Made by a program: the position numbers and the translations under genes
In this document: one piece after another, positions 7,620 to 24,729 of the stretch
How positions within the stretch are numbered: position 1 is the stretch's first letter
Layout: every line of letters begins with the position of its first letter
Assembly (NCBI GenBank): GCA_035532835.1
Contig: DATKQG010000010.1
Location: 1-36,397 of the forward strand
DNA: 36,397 bases
Direction of reading: 5' to 3'
Origin: Candidatus Dormiibacterota bacterium
Lineage (GTDB): Bacteria; Vulcanimicrobiota; Vulcanimicrobiia; Vulcanimicrobiales; Vulcanimicrobiaceae
The notes under the pieces: model-generated
What the model saw: only the letters and a program-made list of their open reading frames with translations
Told to the model about the DNA's origin: nothing
Databases searched by the model: none

Positions 7620-8859
7620 GGGCTTCTCCCAGAGTATCGGCAATCTGCCCGAGTGCCGCTAGTGTTGCGGCCGCCGGCGACGGCTCGCTTCCTTGCTGCA
7701 GGAACCGCCGCAGCGCGGGCTCTGCCTGCAAAGCGTGGCTTAAGCCCTCGGCGTGACAGGGAATGCCCAAGGAGCGGGCCTCGCGCGTGCGCTCGAGCGA
7801 TTCGAGCGCTGCGCGGACGGCGGTAGCCGCATGACGATGCGACGGCGCGGCGGCATGGTGCATCGTTCGGCTCACGCTTTGCAGCACGTCGATGGCCGGG
7901 TAGCGGCCGGCGGCGGCAAGCTCGCCGCTGAGCGCAATGTGCCCGTCCAGCAGCGAGCGGGCCGCTTCGCTGATCGGGTCGCGGTCGTCGCCGTCGTTGA
8001 GCACCGTGGCCAGGAGCGTCGTCGAACCGCCGTAGGCCGGCCCAAATCGCTCCAGCAACAGCGCCAAACGCCCGATCACGCTCGGAGGAAAGCCGGCTCG
8101 CCCAACGCTTTCGCCGGACGCGACGGCGAGCTCGCGAGCCGCGCCCGCATAGCGCGCGAGGCTATCCATGAGCACCAACACGTCGAGCCCGCGCGCGCGC
8201 AAGGCGCCGGCTTGCGCCACCGCCACATCCGCCGCGCGCATTCGCTCCGCGGGCGGGCGATCGCCCGTAGCGCACACGATCGTGGTACGCGCGTCGATGC
8301 GTTGAAGCCACTGCTGCGCCTCGCGTCCGCGTTCGCCGATCAACGCGACGACGACCGCATCGCACGAGACGCCGCGCGCAATGGTTTCCAGCAACGTGCT
8401 CTTGCCGATCCCGGGCGCACCGAAGATGCCGACGCGGGCGCCGCGGCCGATCGTCAGCAGCGCATCGATCGGACGAATGCCCGTCCAGAGCGGTTGCGTA
8501 ACCGTGGCGCGTTCGTCGGGAAGCGGAGGCCGCGCATCGAGCGCGACCAAGGGCCCGTCGAGCCGGGCCTTGGCGTCCAAGGGGCGCAGGCGCGCGTCGA
8601 CGGCGCGACCGAGCGCGCACGTCCCGAGCGGCGCTAGTAACGCGGCGCGGCTAAGGTACGCGCCCGTGCCTGCGCGCAAACCCGCGCAATCGCCGTGCAA
8701 CGCCGCGCTTGCGGTTCCCTCGGCGTCGAGTGCATAGATCGTCGCCATCGTCGGATCGGGCAACGTCGCGATCGTGACGGTGGCTCCGAGCGCGGCGCGG
8801 GGCATCGCAAGTTCGACGAATTGCCCGCGCGCGCGCACGACCGTACCGCGCGCGATCAC
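7603..8859 (-). CDS. fliI: flagellum-specific export ATPase FliI
   Basis: A 418-residue F1-like ATPase that energises type III export. From the GTG start, Walker A GAPGIGKST is at about 147-155, the Walker B strand VLVLMDSLARYA at about 227-238, and between them ALIGERGREAQQW with the catalytic Glu. SVGRAGFPPSVIGRLALLLERFG and the Gly-Gly-Ser-Thr loop followed by VLNDGDDRDPISEAARSLLD are FliI/SctN hallmarks. The GTG at 8857-8859 forms a GTGA overlap with the fliH stop; an upstream TTG at 8871 is the alternative. It is slightly shorter than the usual 430-460 residues. Confidence 0.95.
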   Translation of the reverse strand: MIARGTVVRARGQFVELAMPRAALGATVTIATLPDPTMATIYALDAEGTASAALHGDCAGLRAGTGAYLSRAALLAPLGTCALGRAVDARLRPLDAKARLDGPLVALDARPPLPDERATVTQPLWTGIRPIDALLTIGRGARVGIFGAPGIGKSTLLETIARGVSCDAVVVALIGERGREAQQWLQRIDARTTIVCATGDRPPAERMRAADVAVAQAGALRARGLDVLVLMDSLARYAGAARELAVASGESVGRAGFPPSVIGRLALLLERFGPAYGGSTTLLATVLNDGDDRDPISEAARSLLDGHIALSGELAAAGRYPAIDVLQSVSRTMHHAAAPSHRHAATAVRAALESLERTREARSLGIPCHAEGLSHALQAEPALRRFLQQGSEPSPAAATLAALGQIADTLGEAHGYLD

Positions 8860-9353
8860 GTGCGCCCGCAAGCGTCGAGGAGCGCCTCGAAGCGAGCTCC
8901 GAGCGAAACGTCGATGCTGCCGTGACGAACGTCGATCGCCACGTCGCCGCGCCGCAACTTCGCGTCGGGAATGACTGGGAGCTGCATCGTATGCAGGGCG
9001 TGGAGGTCGTCGGGGTGCACGCGGATGCCGAGCGGGAGGTCGCGGCGCAGTTCGGCAAGCGCGTCATCGACGATCGCGGCGATATCGACCGGAGCCAGAC
9101 GCAATTCGCGCCCGAGAATAGTGGCGCCGAGGTCGCGCATGAACGTTTCGATCCTCGCCGCGCACGCATCCTCGAGCGCGGCCCGCATCCGCTTTATCTG
9201 CGCGACGAACGCGCCGAATACGGCAGCGGCGGCGGCATCGACCGGCGCGCTGCTGCATTCCACGGTTTCCGGCGGAGCAGCTTCCGGCGGGCTATCACAG
9301 GGTGGCGGATCGGGAAACAGGTAGGCTGCCAATGGAACGAATGCGTCAGGCAT
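8856..9353 (-). CDS. fliH: FliH-like stator/regulator of the export ATPase
   Basis: A 165-residue protein between fliF and fliI. The first 40 residues are Pro/Ala-rich; the rest is helical (VFGAFVAQIKRMRAALEDAC, ARIETFMRDLGATILGRELR) followed by ADALAELRRDLPLGIRVHPD-type sequence, DLHALHTMQLPVIPDAKLRRGDVAIDVRHGSIDVSLGAR. That end matches the FliH/HrpE C-terminal domain (V-HPxD followed by D..L..GD..IE...G.ID..L..R). It binds FliI and, through its N-terminus, FliN. The ATG at 9351-9353 overlaps fliF by 8 bases. Confidence 0.88.
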   Translation of the reverse strand: MPDAFVPLAAYLFPDPPPCDSPPEAAPPETVECSSAPVDAAAAAVFGAFVAQIKRMRAALEDACAARIETFMRDLGATILGRELRLAPVDIAAIVDDALAELRRDLPLGIRVHPDDLHALHTMQLPVIPDAKLRRGDVAIDVRHGSIDVSLGARFEALLDACGRT

Positions 9354-10815
9354 GGCGCGAGAGCACTTCCTGCGCGTCCGGGAACAGCGGCGAATGCGGG
9401 CGCTGCATGCGTCGCACGATCGCATCGCGCTCGTGTTGCGGGTAGAGTTCGAGCACGGCGGCGGCCGTTGCCGCCGGCAGCGCGCTGATAATCGCGGCCG
9501 CGGCGTGCGGCGGCTCGTTCGCGAGCGCGCCGCGCACGCCGGCCGGCGTATAGCCGGCAACCGCTTGCGAACGGCGCGCGATCGTGGCGCGCTCGAAGGC
9601 GGCGGCAAGAGCGCCCACCATCGGCCGGGCGGCGATTCGCGCGACCACGACGCCGCCAAACGCCAACGCCAAGGCGGGGAGCAACGGTACGATCGCACCG
9701 TAGAGTAGCCACCAGACGTCGTGCACCGGCGCCGGATCGCGTTGAAAATCGACCGCTTGAACCGTGAGACGATCGCCGCGCCGCGCATCGAAGCCGACGG
9801 TCGCAGCAGCAAGCTCGCGAATGTTCGCGAGATCGATCGCGCGCGCCCGATCGACGAACACGGCGGTCGTCGTGCGGGCTAACCGGCCGGGCGCGCCGCG
9901 CGAGGTGGTTTCCTCCGTATCGCTCCCACGATCGCTCTGCGATGCGCGCTTGAGATAGCGCTTACCGCCCTGCACGTACGACTCTTCGGTTCCGGTTGAA
10001 GCGATCGGCGCGCCCGCGATCACCGAACGCCGCACGCGATGCCGTTCGATCGAGAGCGGATCGGTCTCGGTGTGCACGCGAACGATACTGGTACCGGCGC
10101 CGAACGCGGCGTCCAGCGCAGATTGTAGTGCCGCCTGCAGCGCTCCCGCATCGCTTTGCTCCGCATTCGCGTCGAGTGCGATCCCGCGGTCGTCGAGCAA
10201 CGTCACGCGGGCGGGCGTTAATCCCGCGACGCTCGCCGCGACGAAGGCGCGAATGCCGGTTACGGCCTGGGGAGCGAGCATCGCTCCGGGATGCATCCGC
10301 AATCGCACGCTCGCCGTTGCTTGGGTGGTGTTCTGGTCGGCGAATTCGCTTGCGTGCGCCGGCGCGATGATCACGCGCGCGTCGTCGATTCCGCGGATGC
10401 CGCGCAGGCTCCGCGCGATATCGCCGGCCAGCCCGTCGCGCGCTTGCGCGTCGATCACCGATTGCGGCGTCAGCATGCCGACGGCCGCCAGGGTCTCGCT
10501 GGACGAGGACAGGTGCGCGTGCGGAACGCCTGCCAGCGAGAGCTGCAGCAGCAACCGGCTGCGCGCGCCGGCGGCGATCGTCACGTTGTCGGCGGTCGGC
10601 GTAAACGCGACGTTCCAAGAAGCGAGCCGGTCTTCGACCTCGCGCAGTTGCTCGGCGTGCAGCGGCGTTGCGAACAGCGCGACGCGCGGAGCGTGGGCGA
10701 GGACGCCCGCAACGATTGCCGCGCACGATAGTGTGACGGCGGCAATGCCGCCGCTCCACCGCAATCTGCGCGGTAACAACTTCCACCAAGCCAGGAGTGC
10801 CTCAACGTAGGCCAC
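9346..10815 (-). CDS. fliF: FliF MS-ring protein with C-terminal FliG-middle-like domain
   Basis: A 489-residue protein. Residues 1-35 carry a membrane segment (GGIAAVTLSCAAIVAGVLAH); then come two ring-building motifs (LREVEDRLASWNVAFTPTAD, LARSLRGIRGIDDARVIIAP), a less conserved middle, and a second membrane segment VWWLLYGAIVPLLPALALAF, the usual FliF layout. Beyond it, residues about 427-489 read VRGALANEPPHAAAAIISAL, then a second helix ending AVLELYPQHERDAIVRRM. This is the FliG middle-domain pattern (L..EHPQT.ALILS.L....AA.VL..LP......V..R). The GTG at 10813-10815 follows the fliE stop by one base and has AGGTG upstream. No separate fliG is present in the window. Confidence 0.9.
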   Translation of the reverse strand: MAYVEALLAWWKLLPRRLRWSGGIAAVTLSCAAIVAGVLAHAPRVALFATPLHAEQLREVEDRLASWNVAFTPTADNVTIAAGARSRLLLQLSLAGVPHAHLSSSSETLAAVGMLTPQSVIDAQARDGLAGDIARSLRGIRGIDDARVIIAPAHASEFADQNTTQATASVRLRMHPGAMLAPQAVTGIRAFVAASVAGLTPARVTLLDDRGIALDANAEQSDAGALQAALQSALDAAFGAGTSIVRVHTETDPLSIERHRVRRSVIAGAPIASTGTEESYVQGGKRYLKRASQSDRGSDTEETTSRGAPGRLARTTTAVFVDRARAIDLANIRELAAATVGFDARRGDRLTVQAVDFQRDPAPVHDVWWLLYGAIVPLLPALALAFGGVVVARIAARPMVGALAAAFERATIARRSQAVAGYTPAGVRGALANEPPHAAAAIISALPAATAAAVLELYPQHERDAIVRRMQRPHSPLFPDAQEVLSRHA

Positions 10816-10816
10816 G

Positions 10817-11086
10817 TTACACCTGCATGTTGAGGATGCTCTGGAGCGCCTGCGCGCTTCGCTGCGCCGCCGCCGTCGCGATCGACAGTGCAACGTCGGC
10901 ACGCGCTCGCGCGATCACCGCATCTTGAAGCGAACCGGTGTGCGTGGCGAAGCGATCCTCGGCGCCTTCCGCCGATCGCAGGGTGTCGCCGATCGCGTCC
11001 AGCGCCCGCGCGAACAGCGACGGCTTCGCATCGTGCGACCGTTGGAGGGGGACGGCGATGTCGGGGACGAGGGGCTCGACGGTCAT
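10817..11086 (-). CDS. fliE: flagellar MS-ring/rod junction protein FliE
   Basis: An 89-residue FliE, the adaptor between the MS ring and the proximal rod. The C-terminal half carries the family pattern: LQDAVIARARADVALSIATA then QRSAQALQSILNMQV, close to the canonical L.....V.IA..KA.LA......VR.K...AY.EI..M.V. The N-terminal part is variable as usual. Length is slightly below the usual 100-110. The ATG at 11084-11086 overlaps the flgC stop by 4 bases (ATGA). Confidence 0.92.
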   Translation of the reverse strand: MTVEPLVPDIAVPLQRSHDAKPSLFARALDAIGDTLRSAEGAEDRFATHTGSLQDAVIARARADVALSIATAAAQRSAQALQSILNMQV

Positions 11087-16141: not shown

Positions 16142-17644
16142 CTACCCGTGTTGGCGCTGCAACGGAAACAGCAGCACGTCCCGGATCGACGCATTGTCGG
16201 TGAGCAACATGACCAGACGATCGATGCCGATGCCGATGCCGGCCGTCGGCGGCATGCCGTACTCGAGCGCGCGCACGAAATCCCAATCTGGTTCGGGGAT
16301 TTCGTCGTCGCCTTTGGCGCGTTCCGCAACCTGGGCCTCGAAGCGCGCGCGCTGATCGTCCGGGTCGTTCAATTCCGTAAACGCGTTGGAGACTTCCATC
16401 CGATTGCAGAACAGTTCGTATCGATCTACCAATTGCGGGTCGTCGGCTTTGCGTTTGGCGAGCGGCGAGATCACGACCGGGTAATCCGTGACGAAGGTCG
16501 GCTGGACGAGATTGGGCTCGAGCACTCGTTCGAAAATTTTGTCCAGCGCGTGGCCGTGCGTCGGGGATTTCGGCATCCCGAGTTCGGCCAAGATCTGCGC
16601 GGCACCGTCCGGATCGAGCAGGCGTTCGCGCGTGAAGCGCCCGTCGCTATACTGCGCGATGCCGTCGAGATAGGAAACGCGTGCGAACGGGCGTGCGAAC
16701 GAGAGGGTGCGATCGCCGTTCTTCAATTCCGTGTTGCCGCCGGTCACCACCGAGACCAAATGCGCGATCAACGCTTCGTTGAACGCGAGCATATCGTGAA
16801 CGTCCCAATAGGCGGCGTACAGCTCCAGCATCGTGAATTCGGGATTGTGTGTCGTATCGATGCCTTCGTTGCGGAAGATGCGCCCGATTTCGTACACGCG
16901 TTCCATACCGCCAACGATCAGGCGTTTGAGATTGAGCTCGGTCGCGATGCGCAACTGCATTTCTTCGTCGGAGAGTGCGTTGACGCTGGTGAGAAACGGG
17001 CGCGCGGAGGCTCCGCCGGCGACGTGCAACAGCGTCGGCGTCTCGACTTCGTAAAAACCGCGTTCGTCGATGAAACGGCGGGTCTCCGAAACGATTCGGC
17101 TGCGCAAGATGAACGTATCCCGCACGTCGGGATTTACGATGAGATCGACGTAACGCTGACGGTAGCGCTTCTCGACGTCCTGGAGGCCGTGCCACTTATC
17201 CGGAAGCGGCATCAAGGCTTTGCCCAGCACCGCAAACGCCGTAACGTGCAGCGTGAGGTCGCCCTTCTTCGAACGAAACATGTAGCCGCGCACGCCGACG
17301 ATATCGCCGCGGTCCAGCGCTTCCCACGTCGCGAACGGCTCCTCGCCGAGTTCGTCCTTGCGCACGTAGAGTTGGATGCGTCCGGTGCGATCGTGGAGAT
17401 CGGCAAAGATCGTCTTGCCCATCGTGCGTTTGGACATGATGCGCCCGGCCAGATTCCAGCCCTCGGCATCGGCTTTCTGCCCGACTTCGAGAAACGCGTA
17501 ACGCGCGAGCAACTCTTGCGCGGTCGCTTCCACCTCGTAACGCGTTGCCAGAAACGGGTCGCTTCCGCGCGAACGCAAGGCGGCCAGATGATCGCGTCTG
17601 GCCGCCACGAGTGAGGCTTCGGTTTTGCCTAGTTCTTCGTCCAT
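16142..17644 (-). CDS. lysS: lysyl-tRNA synthetase, class II
   Basis: A 500-residue LysRS, full length, charging tRNA-Lys. The N-terminal OB-fold anticodon domain holds NLAGRIMSKRTMGKTIFADL (about 64-83). Class II motif 2 is FRNEGIDTTHNPEFTMLE (about 257-274) and motif 3 is GIGIGIDRLVMLLTD (about 469-483), ending with IRDVLLFPLQRQ. ATG at 17642-17644. It follows greA by 9 bases; greA-lysS is a common pairing. The metallothionein-like ORF follows immediately. Confidence 0.98.
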   Translation of the reverse strand: MDEELGKTEASLVAARRDHLAALRSRGSDPFLATRYEVEATAQELLARYAFLEVGQKADAEGWNLAGRIMSKRTMGKTIFADLHDRTGRIQLYVRKDELGEEPFATWEALDRGDIVGVRGYMFRSKKGDLTLHVTAFAVLGKALMPLPDKWHGLQDVEKRYRQRYVDLIVNPDVRDTFILRSRIVSETRRFIDERGFYEVETPTLLHVAGGASARPFLTSVNALSDEEMQLRIATELNLKRLIVGGMERVYEIGRIFRNEGIDTTHNPEFTMLELYAAYWDVHDMLAFNEALIAHLVSVVTGGNTELKNGDRTLSFARPFARVSYLDGIAQYSDGRFTRERLLDPDGAAQILAELGMPKSPTHGHALDKIFERVLEPNLVQPTFVTDYPVVISPLAKRKADDPQLVDRYELFCNRMEVSNAFTELNDPDDQRARFEAQVAERAKGDDEIPEPDWDFVRALEYGMPPTAGIGIGIDRLVMLLTDNASIRDVLLFPLQRQHG

Positions 17645-17653
17645 GACGTTACG

Positions 17654-18166
17654 CTACGAGGCTTTTTTCGCAGCCTTCTTGGGAGCGGCGGTGCTGCCGA
17701 TCGATTCGATCTTATATTTCACGACGCCGCGAGGAGTGGTGACGTCGACCGTCTCGCCCTTTTTGTGCGCCATCAGCGCGCGCCCGAGCGGGGATTCGTT
17801 CGAGATGCGCTGGCTCGAAGGGTCGGCCTCGGCCGATCCGACGATCGTGAAATCGTAGCTCTCGTTGTTCTTGAGGTCCTTCACCCTTACCGACGCGCCG
17901 AGATGCACTTCGTCGGCGGCGTACTCCGATTCGTCGATGAGTCGCGCGTTGCGAATCATCCCCTCGAGTTTGAGGATTCTCCCCTCGATGAATGCCTGTT
18001 CTTGCTTGGCGTCTTCGTATTCGGCGTTTTCGCTCAGATCGCCGTACTCTTTGGCTTGGCGAATCCGATCGTTAACTTCTTTGCGGTGTACGGCCTTGAG
18101 TTCGTCGAGCTCGTTTTGCAGTTTCGTCAGCCCCTCGGGCGTCAGGACGATTTCTTTTTCGTTCAA
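17654..18166 (-). CDS. greA: transcription elongation factor GreA
   Basis: A 170-residue GreA, which stimulates RNA cleavage by backtracked RNA polymerase. NEKEIVLTPEGLTKLQNELD opens the coiled coil; YGDLSENAEYEDAKQEQAFI holds the acidic tip (Asp and Glu of the DLSENAEY motif) entering the polymerase channel; the C-terminal domain contains ISNESPLGRALMAHKKGETV. The start is a TTG at 18164-18166, fixed by homology (LNEKEI..) and by GAGGG upstream; no ATG is in range. A lysine/alanine tail (KKAAKKAS) extends the usual 158 residues. Confidence 0.97.
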   Translation of the reverse strand: MNEKEIVLTPEGLTKLQNELDELKAVHRKEVNDRIRQAKEYGDLSENAEYEDAKQEQAFIEGRILKLEGMIRNARLIDESEYAADEVHLGASVRVKDLKNNESYDFTIVGSAEADPSSQRISNESPLGRALMAHKKGETVDVTTPRGVVKYKIESIGSTAAPKKAAKKAS

Positions 18167-18272
18167 GTAACAGACCCTCAAACCGAGAACGTATGGAACG
18201 CTGTAGCGCCCACAGGTGCCCGTGGAACGAGAAGCGCGCCCCGCGGGACGCTGGCGCGGTTGGTTCGCGAGG

Positions 18273-19592
18273 TCAGAGCGTGGCCCTGCCGCGCCAGAAC
18301 GCAAAGGGTATTCCCAGAATCACGCCCGCCCATGCGTACCACTGAAGCTGCCGGTTCTCCGATCCGATCGTGGCTCCGAGCACGGCCAGCAGCGCGATCG
18401 CCCCGAGCAGGGGGAGCGCCACGGCGCGGCTCGGCCAGAACTGCCGCGCGGCCGCCGCCGCGCTGAACACGAATAGCAACCCCAGGAATACCGAGGAGGC
18501 GTTGACTACCACATCGAGCTGGTCGGCGGCGCTGGGCGAAAGGCCGGTCACCAGTTCGCAGACCGTCACCAGCGCGGCGACGGCGGCAAGCGCCCAGAGG
18601 GGCTCGCTGCGCCCGTCTAAGCGGCCTAGGACGCGCGGGAGCACGCCGTCCCGGCCCATCGCATAGACCGAGCGAGAGAGGTACAGAATCGTGGTCCATA
18701 GCGTCGAGAGCGTCGAGAGCATCACCGTGATGACGATGGCGAACCGCCACGCGCCGCCGCCGAGCAAATCGCTCACGTAGGCGAGCGAGTCCGCTTGGTG
18801 GGCGGCGAACCCCGCCGGCGTCCCGAGATGCAGATAGGCGACCATGCAAAGCACGAGCAGAACGATGGTGACCACCAGGCCGGCCATGCCGCCCCGCCCC
18901 GACGCCGAAGCGTCGTCGTCCACTTCCTCGCTCGCCGAGGCGGAGATCTCCCAACCGTCGCTCATCCAGATGCCCAGCGTCATCGCCCCGATGAACCCGG
19001 CGACGGAGAGCGGCAGCACCGGAAGGGCCGCGGCGTGCGCCACGCTTGCGACTGGCGCGTGGGGCAAGAACTCCGCGGCCACCGCGCTGGCCGCCAGGAC
19101 CACGAGCTCGACCGCCAGCGCAACCAACGTGACCATCGCCGTCGGCCGGATGCCGACGTACAGCAGCACCGAGCTCGCAACGATCCACACCCCGCCCACG
19201 CACGCCGCCCAGAGCGGGTCCTGCGCGCGGGCCGGCGCGACCAGCTCCAGGGTATAGATTCCGGCCGGGACCGCGGTCGCCATCGTCGCAAAGAAATTCG
19301 AAAGCAACAGCAGCCACGCGCCGTAGGCGCCGACGCGGTGGCCGAACGCCATGCGGATCCACGAATACGAAGACCCCGCGTTGGGTGCGACGCGCGAGAG
19401 CTGCGCGAACGCGACCGCCATGCACAGCATGATCGCACCCAACGCGATCAACGCGAGCGGAGCCGCGCCGCCGGCCGCCGCCACCATCGGCCCCATCGTC
19501 GAGGCGAGCGAATAGGCCGGCCCCATCGATGCGCTTGCGAGCACCGAGATATCGAAAAATTTCAGCACCTTGGGCAGGCGCCGCGATGGCAT
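18273..19592 (-). CDS. APC-superfamily amino acid/amine permease
   Basis: A 439-residue inner-membrane transporter with about 12 hydrophobic segments. Family marks: LKFFDISVLASASMGPAYSL with the G-G-x-x-x-S-x-A-type first helix, LSRVAPNAGSSYSWIRMAFG with the conserved P-x-x-G-S-x-Y-S-W, and a Gly-Trp-Glu-Ile-Ser-Ala-Ser-Glu-Glu stretch in helix 6, typical of amino acid/polyamine carriers. The ATG at 19590-19592 abuts the stop codon of the previous gene, so it belongs to the aminotransferase operon and may import its substrate or export its product. Substrate not predictable. Confidence 0.92.
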   Translation of the reverse strand: MPSRRLPKVLKFFDISVLASASMGPAYSLASTMGPMVAAAGGAAPLALIALGAIMLCMAVAFAQLSRVAPNAGSSYSWIRMAFGHRVGAYGAWLLLLSNFFATMATAVPAGIYTLELVAPARAQDPLWAACVGGVWIVASSVLLYVGIRPTAMVTLVALAVELVVLAASAVAAEFLPHAPVASVAHAAALPVLPLSVAGFIGAMTLGIWMSDGWEISASASEEVDDDASASGRGGMAGLVVTIVLLVLCMVAYLHLGTPAGFAAHQADSLAYVSDLLGGGAWRFAIVITVMLSTLSTLWTTILYLSRSVYAMGRDGVLPRVLGRLDGRSEPLWALAAVAALVTVCELVTGLSPSAADQLDVVVNASSVFLGLLFVFSAAAAARQFWPSRAVALPLLGAIALLAVLGATIGSENRQLQWYAWAGVILGIPFAFWRGRATL

Positions 19593-20498
19593 TTAGTTCA
19601 GCGTGATGACGCGCGGTTCGAGATGCAACTCGTCGAGAACGCGCTCGTAATCGCCCGGCGTGATGTCGGCCCATTTTTTTCCGAGTAACGCCAGCAGCGC
19701 CGCTTCGATGACGTTGGTGCCGAACGAGCGGCCGTCGAAATCCGGCGTCGTCGTGATCAGCAGCTTGACGCCGCGGTCGCGCAATTCGTCGATGTTCGCT
19801 TGCGTGACGGTGTTCGTCAGGACGATCTTGCCATCCAAGCGATCCGGCATGAACTGGCGCATGAAGTGGAAATCGCCCGCGATGATTTCCGCTTCCGCGT
19901 AATACTGCGGGTATTTCGGCTCGGGCGGCTTGTCTTGCTTTTTGCCGGTCGGATAGAAAAACTGAAACGGCAACTTGCATGCGTCGGGCAGATATTTTTC
20001 GGCCAAGAGCTCGAACTCGTGCAGCCCGCGCACCGGCATGTCTTTATCGAGTGCGAAAATGAAGTCGCCGAACATCACGTCGGCTCCGGCATCCACCAGC
20101 GCTTGCGCCATGCCGAAGCGATCGAGCGCGCTCACCATCAGCACGTGCTTGCCGCGCAAATCGATCCCGAGCGCGCTCTGCATGAACCCAACGGCCTTTC
20201 GCTCGAGCGTGTTCTTCAAGCCGCTGCCGTCGACCACCGGCGTAATCTTCGCGGCTTCGAGCAAACGCAGGCCGTCGCGCAGCGCATAGCGCTTCGATCC
20301 CGCGTAGAGGTACACGTCGATGCCGCCCAGGCCGATCGCATCGACCGTACCGTCGAGTTCGCGCACTTTGGCGATCGCCGCATCGAGTTTACCGTCCATT
20401 CCGATGCGCGAGATGTCGAAATCTTCGCCGAGCAACGACACGATCGCGCGATGGTCGCGAGTCGAGGAGCCCAAAGAGACCGAGACGATGCGTTTCAT
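19593..20498 (-). CDS. quinate 5-dehydrogenase-like protein of unknown function
   Basis: A 301-residue cytoplasmic protein of the group usually labelled quinate 5-dehydrogenase. It begins MKRIVSVSLGSSTRDHRAIV; DAIGLGGIDVYLYAGSKRYA and KITPVVDGSGLKNTLERKAV follow, then IDLRGKHVLMVSALDRFGMA (about residues 119-138), which looks like a Rossmann strand-loop-helix, and VLTNTVTQANIDELRDRGVK and ITTTPDFDGRSFGTNVIEAA. I see no classical shikimate-dehydrogenase substrate motif, so the name may not describe the reaction. It lies 7 bases after the reductase-like gene and abuts the permease, so it should act in the same pathway. Confidence 0.7.
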   Translation of the reverse strand: MKRIVSVSLGSSTRDHRAIVSLLGEDFDISRIGMDGKLDAAIAKVRELDGTVDAIGLGGIDVYLYAGSKRYALRDGLRLLEAAKITPVVDGSGLKNTLERKAVGFMQSALGIDLRGKHVLMVSALDRFGMAQALVDAGADVMFGDFIFALDKDMPVRGLHEFELLAEKYLPDACKLPFQFFYPTGKKQDKPPEPKYPQYYAEAEIIAGDFHFMRQFMPDRLDGKIVLTNTVTQANIDELRDRGVKLLITTTPDFDGRSFGTNVIEAALLALLGKKWADITPGDYERVLDELHLEPRVITLN

Positions 20499-20505
20499 GC
20501 CGTCC

Positions 20506-21630
20506 TCACGATGCGAGCACTCGCCGGCGCGCGTCGGCGGCTTCGCGAATCTGCGCGATCCGCTCCGCCGTCACGGCGGTATCGAACGAGCGCATTCCCG
20601 CCAGCGTAAATCCGCAGCGTTTCGCCATTTCGTCGATCTCCATCACCTTCTGCACGTCGATGCCGCGACCGAGGGTAAACGACTCCAGCCGATTTTCCAA
20701 TGCGAGCACCATCGTCTCGCTCATGCAGGCCAGGGCCGTGCGCGGGGGGAGATTCAGATCGAATTCGCTTCCGGGTTCGCGGACGCGTTCGAAGTACGGC
20801 GTTCCGGGGACCACCATGTTACCGCCCTCGGTAACGAGCACGTCGGGGCGCTCGGTAGCGACGCGGCGGCTAACGTCGTGCGGCAGCGAGAGTTCGCATA
20901 CGACCGATCCGGTCTGCAAATCTTCGGGCTCGATCACGTCCTGCGTGGACGACGTCGCGGTGAGAATCAGTTGCGCGCGGCGTACCGCCGCCGAGATATC
21001 GGTCGTAAACGACGACTCGCACGGTAATTCCGGTGCGATCTGTTCGTGAAACTTCGCCAAGCGCGTCGCGTTGCGCGCGACCAAAATGATGTGTCCGACC
21101 CGGGGAGCGATCAATTTAACGCATGCGGCGCCGATCGAACCGGTCGCTCCGACGACCACCACGGTTGACGCCGCGGGATCGATGCCCATCTCGTCCGCGC
21201 CTCGAAAGAAGCTATGCACCCCGGCCGCAATGGTCAGCGAATTGCCGGTCGTTACCGGGATCGGCGAACGTTCTGCAATGGTCACGCCGCCGTCGCCGAC
21301 GACGGCGGTAAATGCGCCCAAGCCCGCGATCTGCGCGCCCATCTCGACGCCGATCTCGATCGCGCGCAGGATGCGCGTGTACACCTCTTCGCGCGGGAAC
21401 TCCATCATCTGCTCGGGGAGCAGCGGCGCGCTGACGAACCAGCCCTCGGTCTCCCGCCCGTCCGGCGTGCGCACGCCGGTAACGTGGACGGCGTTCCAGG
21501 GCGGCATCCACTCCATGATCTTGCGCACGATCGGCGCGCCCTTCCCTTTTGCCCCGGGCTCGTATCGCGCGACGTCGTCGAGCGAGAGCGGGTGCACGAC
21601 GAAACAAAACTTCGGCGTATTCGCGCTCAC
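20506..21630 (-). CDS. long-chain acyl-ACP-reductase-like (AAR) dehydrogenase
   Basis: A 374-residue NAD(P)-dependent protein resembling cyanobacterial acyl-ACP reductase, which turns fatty acyl-ACP into fatty aldehyde. Shared marks: AGLGAFTAVVG (about 102-112, as LGGFSSIVF in AAR), VTTGNSLT (as TTGNTHT), the Rossmann loop VVGATGSIG (about 159-167), and the C-terminal TALACMSETMVLALENRLES. The Cys there (about 302) aligns by eye with the thioester-forming Cys294 of Synechococcus AAR. The GTG at 21628-21630 overlaps the previous stop (GTGA). A shikimate-dehydrogenase-like activity is the alternative reading. Confidence 0.78.
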   Translation of the reverse strand: MSANTPKFCFVVHPLSLDDVARYEPGAKGKGAPIVRKIMEWMPPWNAVHVTGVRTPDGRETEGWFVSAPLLPEQMMEFPREEVYTRILRAIEIGVEMGAQIAGLGAFTAVVGDGGVTIAERSPIPVTTGNSLTIAAGVHSFFRGADEMGIDPAASTVVVVGATGSIGAACVKLIAPRVGHIILVARNATRLAKFHEQIAPELPCESSFTTDISAAVRRAQLILTATSSTQDVIEPEDLQTGSVVCELSLPHDVSRRVATERPDVLVTEGGNMVVPGTPYFERVREPGSEFDLNLPPRTALACMSETMVLALENRLESFTLGRGIDVQKVMEIDEMAKRCGFTLAGMRSFDTAVTAERIAQIREAADARRRVLAS

Positions 21631-22064
21631 GGCCGTTCGGCTTCGTTCTTCAGTGCGGCCAGCATCATCTCACTATTCTCCACGACCTTCTTCTGCAGCG
21701 TCGGGCCGATCAACTCCGCCAGCGTCGGGACGCCGAAATCGTAGTCGACGGTAAGTTTGACGTACGTCACCCCGTCGCGCTCGTCGAACGTCCACGCGCC
21801 TTCGAAGGTGTCCAAGTCGCCTTCCAGCAGCTTGTACTCGATGCGCAACGCGTCGTCGTAGAAGCGATCTTCCTCGATCCACTCGATCGGCGCCTCTTCG
21901 ACCAGCGTCTTCCAGCGCGAGAGGGTATGGTCGGGGTGTACTTCCAAGACCGTGACGGCTTCAACGTCCGGCATGAACTGCGGAAAACGCTCTTGGTCCT
22001 TGGCAAGTTCGTACACCACTCGGGCCGGGGCCGCGATGGCAATCGAGGTTTCTACGTAGGGCAT
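21627..22064 (-). CDS. SRPBCC-fold polyketide cyclase/COQ10-like protein
   Basis: A 145-residue SRPBCC (START-like) protein: MPYVETSIAIAAPARVVYEL, ERFPQFMPDVEAVTVLE, FTFDERDGVTYVKL-like strand region (AWTFDERDGVTYVKLTVDYD) and a final helix LIGPTLQKKVVENSEMMLAA. The family forms a deep hydrophobic cavity that binds lipids, polyketides or quinones; catalytic residues are not fixed. It starts 2 bases after the aminotransferase stop and overlaps the reductase-like gene. Binding of a long-chain intermediate would suit the operon, but that is inference. Confidence 0.88.
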   Translation of the reverse strand: MPYVETSIAIAAPARVVYELAKDQERFPQFMPDVEAVTVLEVHPDHTLSRWKTLVEEAPIEWIEEDRFYDDALRIEYKLLEGDLDTFEGAWTFDERDGVTYVKLTVDYDFGVPTLAELIGPTLQKKVVENSEMMLAALKNEAERP

Positions 22065-22066
22065 TT

Positions 22067-23350
22067 TTACAAGCGCCCTAGCTTCTGAACGGCGGTTGCC
22101 ACCCCTGCCCGCAGCGCGCCCAAAGCGCGCTCGACCTCATCCGCGGTGACGACCAGCGGCGGCTCGAGCCGAATCACGCGTTGCTGATTGAGCGTCCACG
22201 CCGCCGTCACGCCGGCCTTCACCATCTCGGGGATAATCCAGCCGCCGTATCCTTCGTTCGTGAGTTCGACCCCGACCAATAAGCCGAGGCCGCGGGCCTC
22301 GCGGATAACCTCGGGGTACTCGGCCGCGATGGCCCGGCACCCGTCGAGCAACTGCGCTCCGCGCACGCGGGCGTTTTCCACGAGGCCATCCTCCTGGAGG
22401 ACGTCCATGGCCGCCAGGGCCGCCGCGCAGGCCAGTTCGCCGCCGCCGAAGGTGGAGGTATGCAAGAGCGGCGCCTTGGCGTAGGCGGCATTCCAGACGC
22501 TCGCCCGCGCGATGTAGGCGCCGGCCGGCATGACGCCGCCGGAGAGCCCCTTCGCGAGCGTCATGACGTCGGGCACGACCCCGTCGCGATCGCATCCGAA
22601 GAGCGTCCCGCAGCGCCCGAGGCCCGTCTGCACCTCGTCGGCGATCAGCAGGGCGCCCGCGCGGTCGCAGGCCTCACGGGCGGCCCGCAGGTAGCCGGGT
22701 GGCGGAATATTGACGCCGCCTTCGCCCTGTACCGGCTCGACGACGAATGCGGCCGCGCCTTCGAGCGCCCGATCCAGAGCGCTCGCATCGCCGAACGGGA
22801 TGTGGACGACGTCGGCCAAGAGTGGGCGAAAAGGGGCCTGAAACGTCTCCCGGCCGCTGATCGAGAGGGCTCCGAACGTCTTGCCGTGGTAGGCATCGTG
22901 GGTGGCGACGATGGTGGCGCGCCCGGTCGCGCGGCGAGCGAGTTTGATCGCCCCTTCCACCGCTTCGGTGCCGCTATTGCACCAGAACGAGATCTGCAGA
23001 TCGCCGGGCGTGATCTCCGCAAGTCGCTTCGAGACGCGCCCGAGCAGCACGTTGAACATCGTTTTTCCCGAGAGCGACATCAGGTCGAGCTGGGCCTTGA
23101 CCGCCGCGACCACGCGCGGATGGGAGTGCCCGAGCGTGAAGACGCCGTATCCGCCCGCGAAATCGAGGTACGCCTTGCCCCGGTGGTCCCAAATCGTCGT
23201 ACCTTGCGCCCGCACCTCGATCGGCGAGGCCGAGAGTTTCATGACGCGCGCCAACGGCGGGTTCACGTACTGCCGATAGTTTTCGAACACCTCGTTCGCC
23301 AACTCTTGCGGCGAGGCGGCGCCGTACAGGGCGTCCCGTGATTCCAACAT
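22067..23350 (-). CDS. class III PLP-dependent aminotransferase
   Basis: A 427-residue fold-type I enzyme of the class III (ornithine/putrescine/GABA aminotransferase) group. Seen: LDFAGGYGVFTLGHSHPRVV (about 62-81), CNSGTEAVEGAIKLARR with the PLP phosphate site (about 124-140), DAYHGKTFGALS, VEPVQGEGG, LIADEVQTGLGRCG with the cofactor Asp (about 238), and TLAKGLSGG with the Schiff-base Lys (about 267). The N-terminal YRQYVNPPLARVMKL is closest to putrescine-type enzymes by eye. First gene of a five-gene operon; a divergent coiled-coil gene lies upstream. Substrate unproven. Confidence 0.92.
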   Translation of the reverse strand: MLESRDALYGAASPQELANEVFENYRQYVNPPLARVMKLSASPIEVRAQGTTIWDHRGKAYLDFAGGYGVFTLGHSHPRVVAAVKAQLDLMSLSGKTMFNVLLGRVSKRLAEITPGDLQISFWCNSGTEAVEGAIKLARRATGRATIVATHDAYHGKTFGALSISGRETFQAPFRPLLADVVHIPFGDASALDRALEGAAAFVVEPVQGEGGVNIPPPGYLRAAREACDRAGALLIADEVQTGLGRCGTLFGCDRDGVVPDVMTLAKGLSGGVMPAGAYIARASVWNAAYAKAPLLHTSTFGGGELACAAALAAMDVLQEDGLVENARVRGAQLLDGCRAIAAEYPEVIREARGLGLLVGVELTNEGYGGWIIPEMVKAGVTAAWTLNQQRVIRLEPPLVVTADEVERALGALRAGVATAVQKLGRL

Positions 23351-23444
23351 GATCCGCTTCCTTCGCTACCCGCCTGCCTTGCTCTTCGATAACCGTCCAT
23401 CCGGAGGAAACATCTTGGCAACTTCCGTATGCCAGAGTGCCACC

Positions 23445-23735
23445 ATGGACGCGCAGCCGACGACACGCGAACTCCTCGACGCCATGCTCGATTTCCGAGC
23501 AGCGGTAGAGACACGTTTTGATGCAATAGATCGCCGTTTTGAAGGCATCGACCGCCGATTTGATGGCGTAGACCGCCGATTCGAAGGCATCGAAGCCCAC
23601 CTCGCGCGGCACGACGTACAACTCGATGCGATCAGACGACACCTCGACCGGCACGACGTGCAATTCGATGCGATGGATTGCCGGCTTGGGCGAATCGAAG
23701 TGCGGATCGAAGCGGTAGAAGCTAAGCCGCGATAG
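23445..23735 (+). CDS. small heptad-repeat coiled-coil protein
   Basis: A 96-residue soluble protein on the plus strand, start ATG 23445-23447 (the reading frame extends back to 23349). The centre is a chain of 7-residue units of the form (I/V)-D-R-R-F-(E/D)-G, followed by longer HDVQLDAIRRHLDR / HDVQFDAMDCRLGR units, giving a strong coiled-coil heptad with hydrophobic Ile/Val/Phe positions and salt-bridging Arg/Asp/Glu. Such proteins occur widely as small relatives of tail-fibre-like or apolipoprotein-like coiled coils; no function is assigned. It overlaps the dus stop by 14 bases tail to tail. Confidence 0.78.
   Translation: MDAQPTTRELLDAMLDFRAAVETRFDAIDRRFEGIDRRFDGVDRRFEGIEAHLARHDVQLDAIRRHLDRHDVQFDAMDCRLGRIEVRIEAVEAKPR
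23524..23591 (+). repeat. 21-bp tandem repeats encoding DRRF units
   Basis: About three imperfect copies of a 21-base unit of the form GATCGCCGTTTTGAAGGCAT run in tandem and encode the seven-residue coiled-coil units. A related 42-base duplication (CACGACGT..CAATTCGATGCGAT) follows at about 23610-23680. Copy number may vary between strains. Confidence 0.75.
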
Positions 23736-24729
23736 TCGCTTCGGCTTCAAGCCGATCGATCGCTTCCTGAAGAACCGCTTTCGCTTCGCCGGCGCCGGCG
23801 ATGCGCATGATGCGCTCGCGCAACACCGCGGCTCCCGCGATGCCTTTCAAGTACAACGCGACGTGCTTGCGCATCTGGGGAACCGCGCGCGATTCGCCTT
23901 GCTCCTCCACCATACGGTCGTAGTGTTCGATGCAGAAGCGTAAACGATCCGCCGCCGGCGGCGTCGGCTGCGCGGCGCGGCCCTCCATGAGGTCGCGAAT
24001 CTGCGAGATGAGCCAGGGGTTGCCGAGCGTCGCGCGCCCGAGCATGATCGCATCGACGCCGCTCGCGCGCATGCGCTCCATCGCCAGATGCGCGTCGTCG
24101 AGATCGCCGTTACCGATTACCGGAATATCGATCGCCGCCTTGAGGCGCGCGATATGCTCCCAATCGGCGCTGCCTTTGTAAAACTGGCGCGCCGTGCGTG
24201 CATGCAGTGTTACCGCTTGCACGCCGACGCGCTGCGCGCGCTGCGCGACGTCGATATAGACCAGGTCCGTTTCGGTCCAACCCAAACGCATCTTCATCGT
24301 GACCGGGCAATCGACCGCGCGCACGACCGCATCCATGATCGCTTCGCAGCGTTCGACGTCGCGCAGGCAGGCGGAGCCGCCGTTGGTTTTCGTGACCTTG
24401 GGGGCGGGGCAACCGAAGTTGATGTCGACGATGTCGGCGCCGCACTCGCGCACGACCTTTGCGGCTGCGGCCATCGCCTCTGGATCGTCGCCCCAGAGCT
24501 GCGTGGAAACGGGCTTCTCGAGGCCGTGCTGATCGATCATCTCCATCGTGCGCTTGTTCGTGTACTTCAGCGCGTTGGACGAGACGAATTCCGTCACGGT
24601 CAGGCCCAAGCCAAAGGGCTTATAGAGCGCGCGCATCGTCCGGTTGGTAACGCCGGACATCGGCGCGAGCACGAGGGGCGGCCAAATCTGGTGGCTGCCG
24701 ATCTGCAGCGGGGCGACCGTGGGTGGCAT
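23722..24729 (-). CDS. dusB: tRNA-dihydrouridine synthase (DusB type)
   Basis: A 335-residue FMN enzyme reducing uridines in the tRNA D-loop. Seen: LAPMSGVTNRTMRALYKPFG (about 20-39), NFGCPAPKVTKTNGGSACLR with the catalytic Cys (about 102-121), VTMKMRLGW, VTLHARTARQFYKGSADW, PVIGNGDLDDAHLA and MLGRATLGNPWLI. These fix the Dus barrel and C-terminal helical domain; DusB versus DusA/C subtype is less sure. ATG at 24727-24729, 11 bases after the coaX stop. Confidence 0.95.
   Translation of the reverse strand: MPPTVAPLQIGSHQIWPPLVLAPMSGVTNRTMRALYKPFGLGLTVTEFVSSNALKYTNKRTMEMIDQHGLEKPVSTQLWGDDPEAMAAAAKVVRECGADIVDINFGCPAPKVTKTNGGSACLRDVERCEAIMDAVVRAVDCPVTMKMRLGWTETDLVYIDVAQRAQRVGVQAVTLHARTARQFYKGSADWEHIARLKAAIDIPVIGNGDLDDAHLAMERMRASGVDAIMLGRATLGNPWLISQIRDLMEGRAAQPTPPAADRLRFCIEHYDRMVEEQGESRAVPQMRKHVALYLKGIAGAAVLRERIMRIAGAGEAKAVLQEAIDRLEAEATIAA

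Follow-up and report, generated by a model that had tools for sequence, protein, structure and literature searches.

A conserved four-gene unit of Vulcanimicrobiota as a candidate route from acyl thioesters to long-chain amines for membrane lipids

What could a class III aminotransferase, an SRPBCC protein, a relative of acyl-acyl carrier protein (ACP) reductase, a 'quinate-dehydrogenase-like' protein and an amino-acid permease do together, encoded one directly after the other? This arrangement lies on contig DATKQG010000010.1 of a Candidatus Dormiibacterota genome (assembly GCA_035532835.1; phylum Vulcanimicrobiota), of which we analyzed positions 1 to 36,397 (36,397 nt, hereafter the window). 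It had been noticed from the sequence as a possible new aldehyde or amine pathway. We find it probable that four of the genes form a core that makes long-chain primary amines for membrane lipids. The five closely spaced minus-strand open reading frames (ORFs) are present at 18273-23350, as originally described, with gaps of 2, -4, 7 and 0 bases in transcription order, and likely form a single transcription unit; a scan of the locus for sigma-70 consensus promoters gave no match. In transcription order and with the labels used below, the genes are:

22067..23350, minus strand: AT, class III aminotransferase dependent on pyridoxal phosphate (PLP), 427 aa, first in transcription order (Pfam Aminotran_3, 334 bits)
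21627..22064, minus strand: SRPBCC protein, RatA/COQ10-like, 145 aa, 2 bases after AT (Polyketide_cyc, 66 bits)
20506..21630, minus strand: AAR, acyl-thioester (acyl-ACP) reductase-like protein, 374 aa, overlapping the SRPBCC gene by 4 bases (Shikimate_DH, Rossmann domain only, 34 bits)
19593..20498, minus strand: QDH, the 'quinate-dehydrogenase-like' protein, two-domain alpha/beta, 301 aa, 7 bases after AAR, no Pfam match
18273..19592, minus strand: APC amino-acid permease, 439 aa, directly after QDH with a gap of 0 (AA_permease_2, 97 bits)

NCBIfam and Pfam agreed on the AT, the SRPBCC protein and the permease. Across the phylum, whose genome set includes records filed under Candidatus Eremiobacterota or Vulcanimicrobiota, AAR was found in 137 of 148 genomes (83 of the 85 of good quality) with identities of 43-97% among well-covered matches; the unit is therefore part of the core metabolism of the phylum. 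At 39 loci from 16 families, counting for each pair the loci where both genes were visible, AT adjoined SRPBCC at 32 of 34, SRPBCC adjoined AAR at 29 of 37 and AAR adjoined QDH at 34 of 39. In the window's own family, the permease was present at 7 of the 11 loci with enough flanking sequence; elsewhere in the phylum it was present at none of 24. The conserved unit is therefore AT-SRPBCC-AAR-QDH, and the permease, originally counted among the pathway members, is an accessory addition.

The assignment of the reductase to the AAR type held. Its predicted model (pLDDT 91) has the three-domain AAR fold and matched the structures of Synechococcus elongatus AAR (SeAAR) with TM-scores of 0.72-0.79 (E 2e-21), and the acyl-thioester cysteine, the TTGNxxT motif and the GATGSIG motif named in the original prediction are all in place:

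20725..20727, minus strand: Cys302, predicted acyl-thioester cysteine, aligned with SeAAR C294
21130..21150, minus strand: GATGSIG dinucleotide-binding loop, residues 161-167
21244..21255, minus strand: TTGN motif, residues 126-129 (TTGNSLT at 126-132)

In addition, Arg186, Arg190 and Arg322 align with R189, R193 and R314 of SeAAR, the arginines for NADPH or its phosphate (PMC7089970), the second site being R or K in relatives. The protein thus shares fold, cysteine and NADPH arginines with the cyanobacterial enzyme (6jzq/6jzy), but it is only ∼25% identical to it and has an aminotransferase as its partner. The proposed comparison with the AAR family model came out accordingly mixed: AcACP_reductase (TIGR04058) does match, but at 88.8 bits against a cut-off of 449.7. 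The partner of cyanobacterial AAR, aldehyde-deformylating oxygenase (PF11266), which had not been seen in the window either, was not found in the window's genome (96% complete), while a Synechococcus control was positive. The catalytic cysteine is kept in 52 of 54 AARs of the module, the two exceptions being copies from one genome that carries an AT-AAR fusion. Behind QDH, the place of AAR is taken by diverged AAR-like or unrelated proteins at three loci (L101:3240-4292, identical to L235; L244:3604-4596; L093:108-1010), and it is the L101/L235 copy that lacks the cysteine in the genome with the fusion elsewhere. Within the window's family, a single genome also has a distant second AAR-like gene (L069:7186-8241; 26% identity, very long branch).

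Although the combination had been described as no known pathway, it has precedents in PigE (PMC8341465) and TamH (PMC9594044), both fusions of AAR and AT domains with biochemical evidence. PigE converts a thioester via an aldehyde to an amine, using an AAR-like N-terminal domain with Cys296 and probably ornithine or arginine as amine donors; the full reaction was seen with cell lysate, not with purified PigE (PMC8341465). The transaminase domain of TamH accepts C7-C14 aldehydes and aminates them with L-Glu, and the pair of TamA and TamH makes amines from fatty acids (PMC9594044). The window genes share with PigE (NF053554) both domains, the catalytic Cys and the PLP Lys (here C302 and K267), AAR matching its N-terminal domain at 211 bits and AT its C-terminal domain at 422 bits. 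In contrast to these two genes, PigE is a single fused protein scoring above 850 bits, and it serves the prodigiosin pathway, whereas the window unit has no prodigiosin genes, belongs to the core of its phylum and comes with SRPBCC and QDH. TamH likewise leads from a fatty acyl-ACP to a fatty amine, with the AT-AAR domain order also found in fusions of Lutispora and Syntrophomonadaceae, but serves a secondary metabolite (tambjamine), whereas the window unit has no linkage to pyrrole genes and occurs almost throughout its phylum. The enzyme families are thus ordinary and the PigE/TamH precedent rare; here the two activities are split, phylum-wide and joined by two extra partners, with a plausible link to membrane lipids.

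By general score, the nearest characterized aminotransferase is the putrescine aminotransferase YgjG/PatA, with which the window AT has fold class and PLP chemistry in common. The AT matched the putrescine aminotransferase models PRK11522 and TIGR03372 at 432 and 383 bits, below their cut-offs of 612 and 659, whereas a true putrescine aminotransferase from Desulfofundulus reached 745 bits against the cut-off of 612, which the module ATs fall short of. Since a raw score threshold is insufficient to part the module ATs from true putrescine aminotransferases, we relied on residues and a tree. Two positions are central to the comparison:

22550..22552, minus strand: Lys267, PLP Schiff-base lysine, aligned with YgjG K300 and invariant in the AT alignment
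23063..23065, minus strand: Lys96, at the place of YgjG Gln119 in the alignment with YgjG

Besides the PLP lysine, the window AT retains Glu210, Gln241 and Arg394. However, the residues of the YgjG putrescine pocket, Gln119, Phe327 and Tyr402, are replaced by Lys, Leu and Gly, while the Desulfofundulus enzyme has all three. Gln119 binds the far amine of putrescine (PMC4244111); true putrescine aminotransferases have Q at this position, and the stand-alone ATs of the module almost always have K or R, with one H. In the tree, the module ATs fall into one supported clade with YgjG inside it, and the PigE-type and Clostridial ATs form a clade beside. The original prediction had allowed for either direction of the AT reaction; that from aldehyde to amine is the best supported, and the reverse less so for an AT without the putrescine pocket.

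The linkage is also conserved in other phyla, which had been proposed as a check. A scan of 84,980 species genomes with the QDH motif GRSFGTNxxEA returned at least 119 stretches; among the matches listed were Bacillota, Chloroflexota, Deinococcota, Armatimonadota, Actinomycetota, Calditrichales, Atribacteria and the home phylum, as well as one NPL-UPA2 and one Heimdallarchaeota metagenome-assembled genome (MAG). QDH-AAR pairs occur in Bacillota, Armatimonadota and NPL-UPA2, the four-gene cluster QDH-AT-SRPBCC-AAR in two Actinomycetota MAGs, AT-SRPBCC-AAR in one Alicyclobacillaceae MAG, and AT-SRPBCC pairs in 13 genomes outside the home phylum (for example Anaerospora, Natroniella and Selenomonadales). 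Fusions join AT to AAR in 13 Clostridia-type genomes, including the Lutispora and Syntrophomonadaceae types, QDH to AAR in two Chloroflexota (751 and 729 aa), and AAR to the end of a PlsY-type glycerol-3-phosphate acyltransferase in two Meiothermus species. The QDH-AAR fusions support a pathway common to both proteins. We rejected a 735-aa Meiothermus frame as an AAR-AT fusion, as the partner of AAR there is the PlsY-type acyltransferase. To quantify co-occurrence, we used 70 genomes chosen for QDH and counted as AT a PatA/PigE-type protein of ≥400 bits or one fused or adjacent to AAR. By this definition, 48 of the 56 AAR-bearing genomes had an AT, compared with 1 of the 14 that lack AAR (Fisher p = 5e-8, with related genomes not independent). 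The notion that Chloroflexota lack AAR, which stemmed from a single Leptolinea genome, was dropped, as most sampled Chloroflexota carry AAR at an unlinked site. QDH had no match among plasmids or in IMG/VR, and an AAR search of plasmids did not find the four-gene unit but PigE-like fusions instead (Alphaproteobacteria, Pseudoalteromonas and other plasmids). Those AAR-aminotransferase fusions on plasmids of Leisingera (L071:6594-10781) and Methylocystis (L072:7998-10541) sit with adenylating enzymes, ACP or polyketide synthases and apparently belong to other amine natural products.

The two remaining partners are less familiar. The nearest solved relative of the SRPBCC protein is Thermus TTHA0849 (2d4r; E 2.7e-20), and its family makes it a probable binder of a hydrophobic ligand. 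For QDH, the quinate-dehydrogenase label turned out to be an annotation name only: the protein has no Pfam family, and its model (pLDDT 92.5) found a best PDB match at TM-score 0.51, with only distant Rossmann-like or periplasmic-binding folds. An origin of QDH as a duplicated AAR was rejected by profile-profile alignment (probability 0.2%). Across 80 sequences from many phyla, 31 residues are invariant, and QDH must therefore be under strong constraint; the family is listed as slow-evolving and uncharacterized in Deinococcus, where it is annotated 'quinate 5-dehydrogenase' (PMC9425974). Several other neighborhoods of QDH were observed. A small helix-turn-helix protein lies just upstream of it at 36 loci outside the home phylum. 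In Anaerolineae, the next gene encodes an NTP-transferase, and at many of these loci a PAP2 phosphatase is present as well (L122:2608-4863 and ∼30 further loci, mostly Chloroflexota). In Desulfofundulus, Pelotomaculum and another Bacillota MAG, it stands beside an SCP2-like protein and an APC permease (L128:4982-7757, L159:918-3581, L167:3896-6495), an association separate from the four-gene unit. The Heimdallarchaeota MAG carries a QDH relative without AAR (L116:1-870).

From the gene content, linkage, fusions, residues, AAR fold and co-occurrence we infer both reactions, the chain length and the lipid end product. Cys302 of AAR would accept the fatty acyl group of an acyl-ACP or acyl-CoA, and AAR would reduce it with NADPH to a fatty aldehyde, which AT would transaminate to a long-chain alkylamine; judged by the enzymes' sequences, we consider this two-step reductive amination from acyl thioester to amine likely. 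The SRPBCC protein would probably hold the hydrophobic aldehyde or amine and pass it between the enzymes or to the membrane. QDH would work with AAR, to which it is fused in the two Chloroflexota, and we favor a role as its partner oxidoreductase or as an enzyme on the head-group side. The alkylamine would finally become part of a lipid, for which the N-glyceroyl-alkylamine phosphoglycolipid type seen in Deinococcota and some Bacillota is the most likely candidate; we rate this end use as somewhat favored.

The membranes of Deinococcus and Thermus are built on a phospholipid, described in 1985, in which glyceric acid carries a long-chain amine through an amide bond. A lipid of this kind is a major phospholipid of Meiothermus, Thermus and Deinococcus (PMC3398001, PMC3035268), and the enzymes for this third (alkylamine) chain were still unidentified according to a 2022 paper (PMC9636437). 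According to Bale et al. 2025, cited in PMC13274423, several Bacillota have N-glyceroyl alkylamine lipids as well, and the latter paper lists them for Moorella thermoacetica. Such lipids require a long-chain primary amine, as predicted for AAR and AT; they are known from Deinococcus, Thermus, Meiothermus and some Bacillota, and sequence is what ties them to the window genes. When run on 14 control genomes, the AAR model gave matches in Synechococcus and in the two Deinococcota, Thermus composti and Deinobacterium chartae, and in none of the others. Bacillota carry the unit, and in Meiothermus hypogaeus the genes for AAR, AT, SRPBCC and QDH are all present, for the most part unlinked. Three lines of observation point to membrane lipids: the fusion of AAR with PlsY in Meiothermus together with the recurrence of SRPBCC, SCP2 and PAP2 proteins beside QDH, the coincidence of alkylamine phospholipids and AAR in Deinococcota, and the lipids reported in Bacillota. 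The unit is a concrete, testable candidate for the missing first part of the amine-lipid pathway of Thermus, Deinococcus and some Bacillota. If this holds, such lipids would be predicted in Vulcanimicrobiota, the highly conserved 'quinate 5-dehydrogenase' family would be tied to a pathway, the genes would provide genome markers for the lipid, and the enzymes could serve as single-function, possibly thermostable catalysts for making fatty amines. A broader reading, which we hold tentatively and at slightly less than even, is that of an ancient, widespread pathway dedicated to the glyceroyl-alkylamine chain in Vulcanimicrobiota, Bacillota, Deinococcota, Chloroflexota, Armatimonadota and Actinomycetota, with QDH as a new enzyme family and the lipids far commoner than known, including in Vulcanimicrobiota (Eremiobacterota).

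Several points speak against a unit making amines for lipids. A clear AT is missing from 8 of the 56 genomes with AAR, so the unit is not always complete, and 14 of the 70 genomes have QDH but no AAR; QDH can therefore act without it. The proximity of AT to YgjG in the tree leaves room for a small diamine as a possible substrate. The match between lipids and genes in Bacillota would apply at the level of the phylum rather than strain by strain, and the list of polar lipids for the sole Vulcanimicrobiota isolate, Vulcanimicrobium, gives them only as unidentified (PMC9758169). Our analysis identified no enzyme for amide formation or phosphatidyl transfer. In the open-access literature we found no paper tying these genes to glyceroyl-alkylamine lipids, though other literature may.

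The alternative that survives best is that a long-chain amine or aldehyde is made for another use. The product could be, for example, a fatty amine in free form, an ether or vinyl-ether lipid derived from the aldehyde, or a small molecule for secretion. The same enzyme evidence (the scores against the PigE halves, the AT pocket and the AAR fold) supports this, the aldehyde could be the end product in several Chloroflexota that have AAR and QDH without the special AT, and an NTP-transferase and PAP2 adjoin QDH in that phylum. We nevertheless regard it as rather unlikely, as the AT-AAR fusions and the strong co-occurrence of the two point to an amine, and alkylamine lipids are present in Deinococcota with the genes. 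Less likely still is a catabolic route, in which the permease would import an amine or diamine, AT oxidize it to an aldehyde, and AAR act as a CoA-acylating aldehyde dehydrogenase. Both the general score and the tree place AT next to putrescine aminotransferase, and APC permeases adjoin the unit here and QDH in Desulfofundulus and Pelotomaculum. However, AT lacks the cut-off score and all three pocket residues that the true Desulfofundulus enzyme has, the permease is not conserved, and the occurrence of the unit almost throughout the phylum speaks for a core component.

The weak similarity of AAR to hemA (about 27-28 bits, cut-off 210), the analogy to glutamyl-tRNA reductase (GluTR) and glutamate-1-semialdehyde aminomutase raised by the PigE authors (PMC8341465) and the conserved neighbor lysS could suggest that AAR and AT act in the same manner on an aminoacyl-tRNA. 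We rejected this as highly improbable, because the genome has a genuine hemA at another site (410 bits against the cut-off of 210); moreover, the fold is that of AAR (TM-score 0.72, versus 0.32 for GluTR), and greA-lysS flanks QDH also at loci without AT. An operon for shikimate or quinate metabolism, suggested by the PF01488 match on AAR (34 bits) and the annotation name of QDH in Deinococcus, is scarcely credible, since PF01488 spans only the Rossmann part of AAR, and the 301-aa QDH matched no shikimate or quinate dehydrogenase, either as a Pfam family or among its closest folds. Of the refuting outcomes named with the original prediction, neither missing linkage nor an assignment to shikimate or quinate metabolism was therefore observed.

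Around the four-gene unit, the neighbors in the window are dus, greA, lysS, coaX, coaBC and panC, and a prodigiosin cluster is absent there. The order dus, QDH or the whole unit, greA, lysS is common to Vulcanimicrobiota and Bacillota, and we take the flanking genes as context rather than mechanism:

16142..18304, minus strand: greA and lysS, downstream neighbors kept in several phyla
23722..24729, minus strand: dus, conserved upstream neighbor

Opposite the gap between dus and AT lies a putative coding ORF of 128 aa (23349-23735, plus strand) with heptad-like RFxGIDRRFDGVDRR repeats. Farther away, the FliF ORF (8856-10902, minus strand) shows a match to the FliG middle domain at its end and overlaps the next ORF, which could reflect a FliF-FliG fusion, an overlap or a frameshift.

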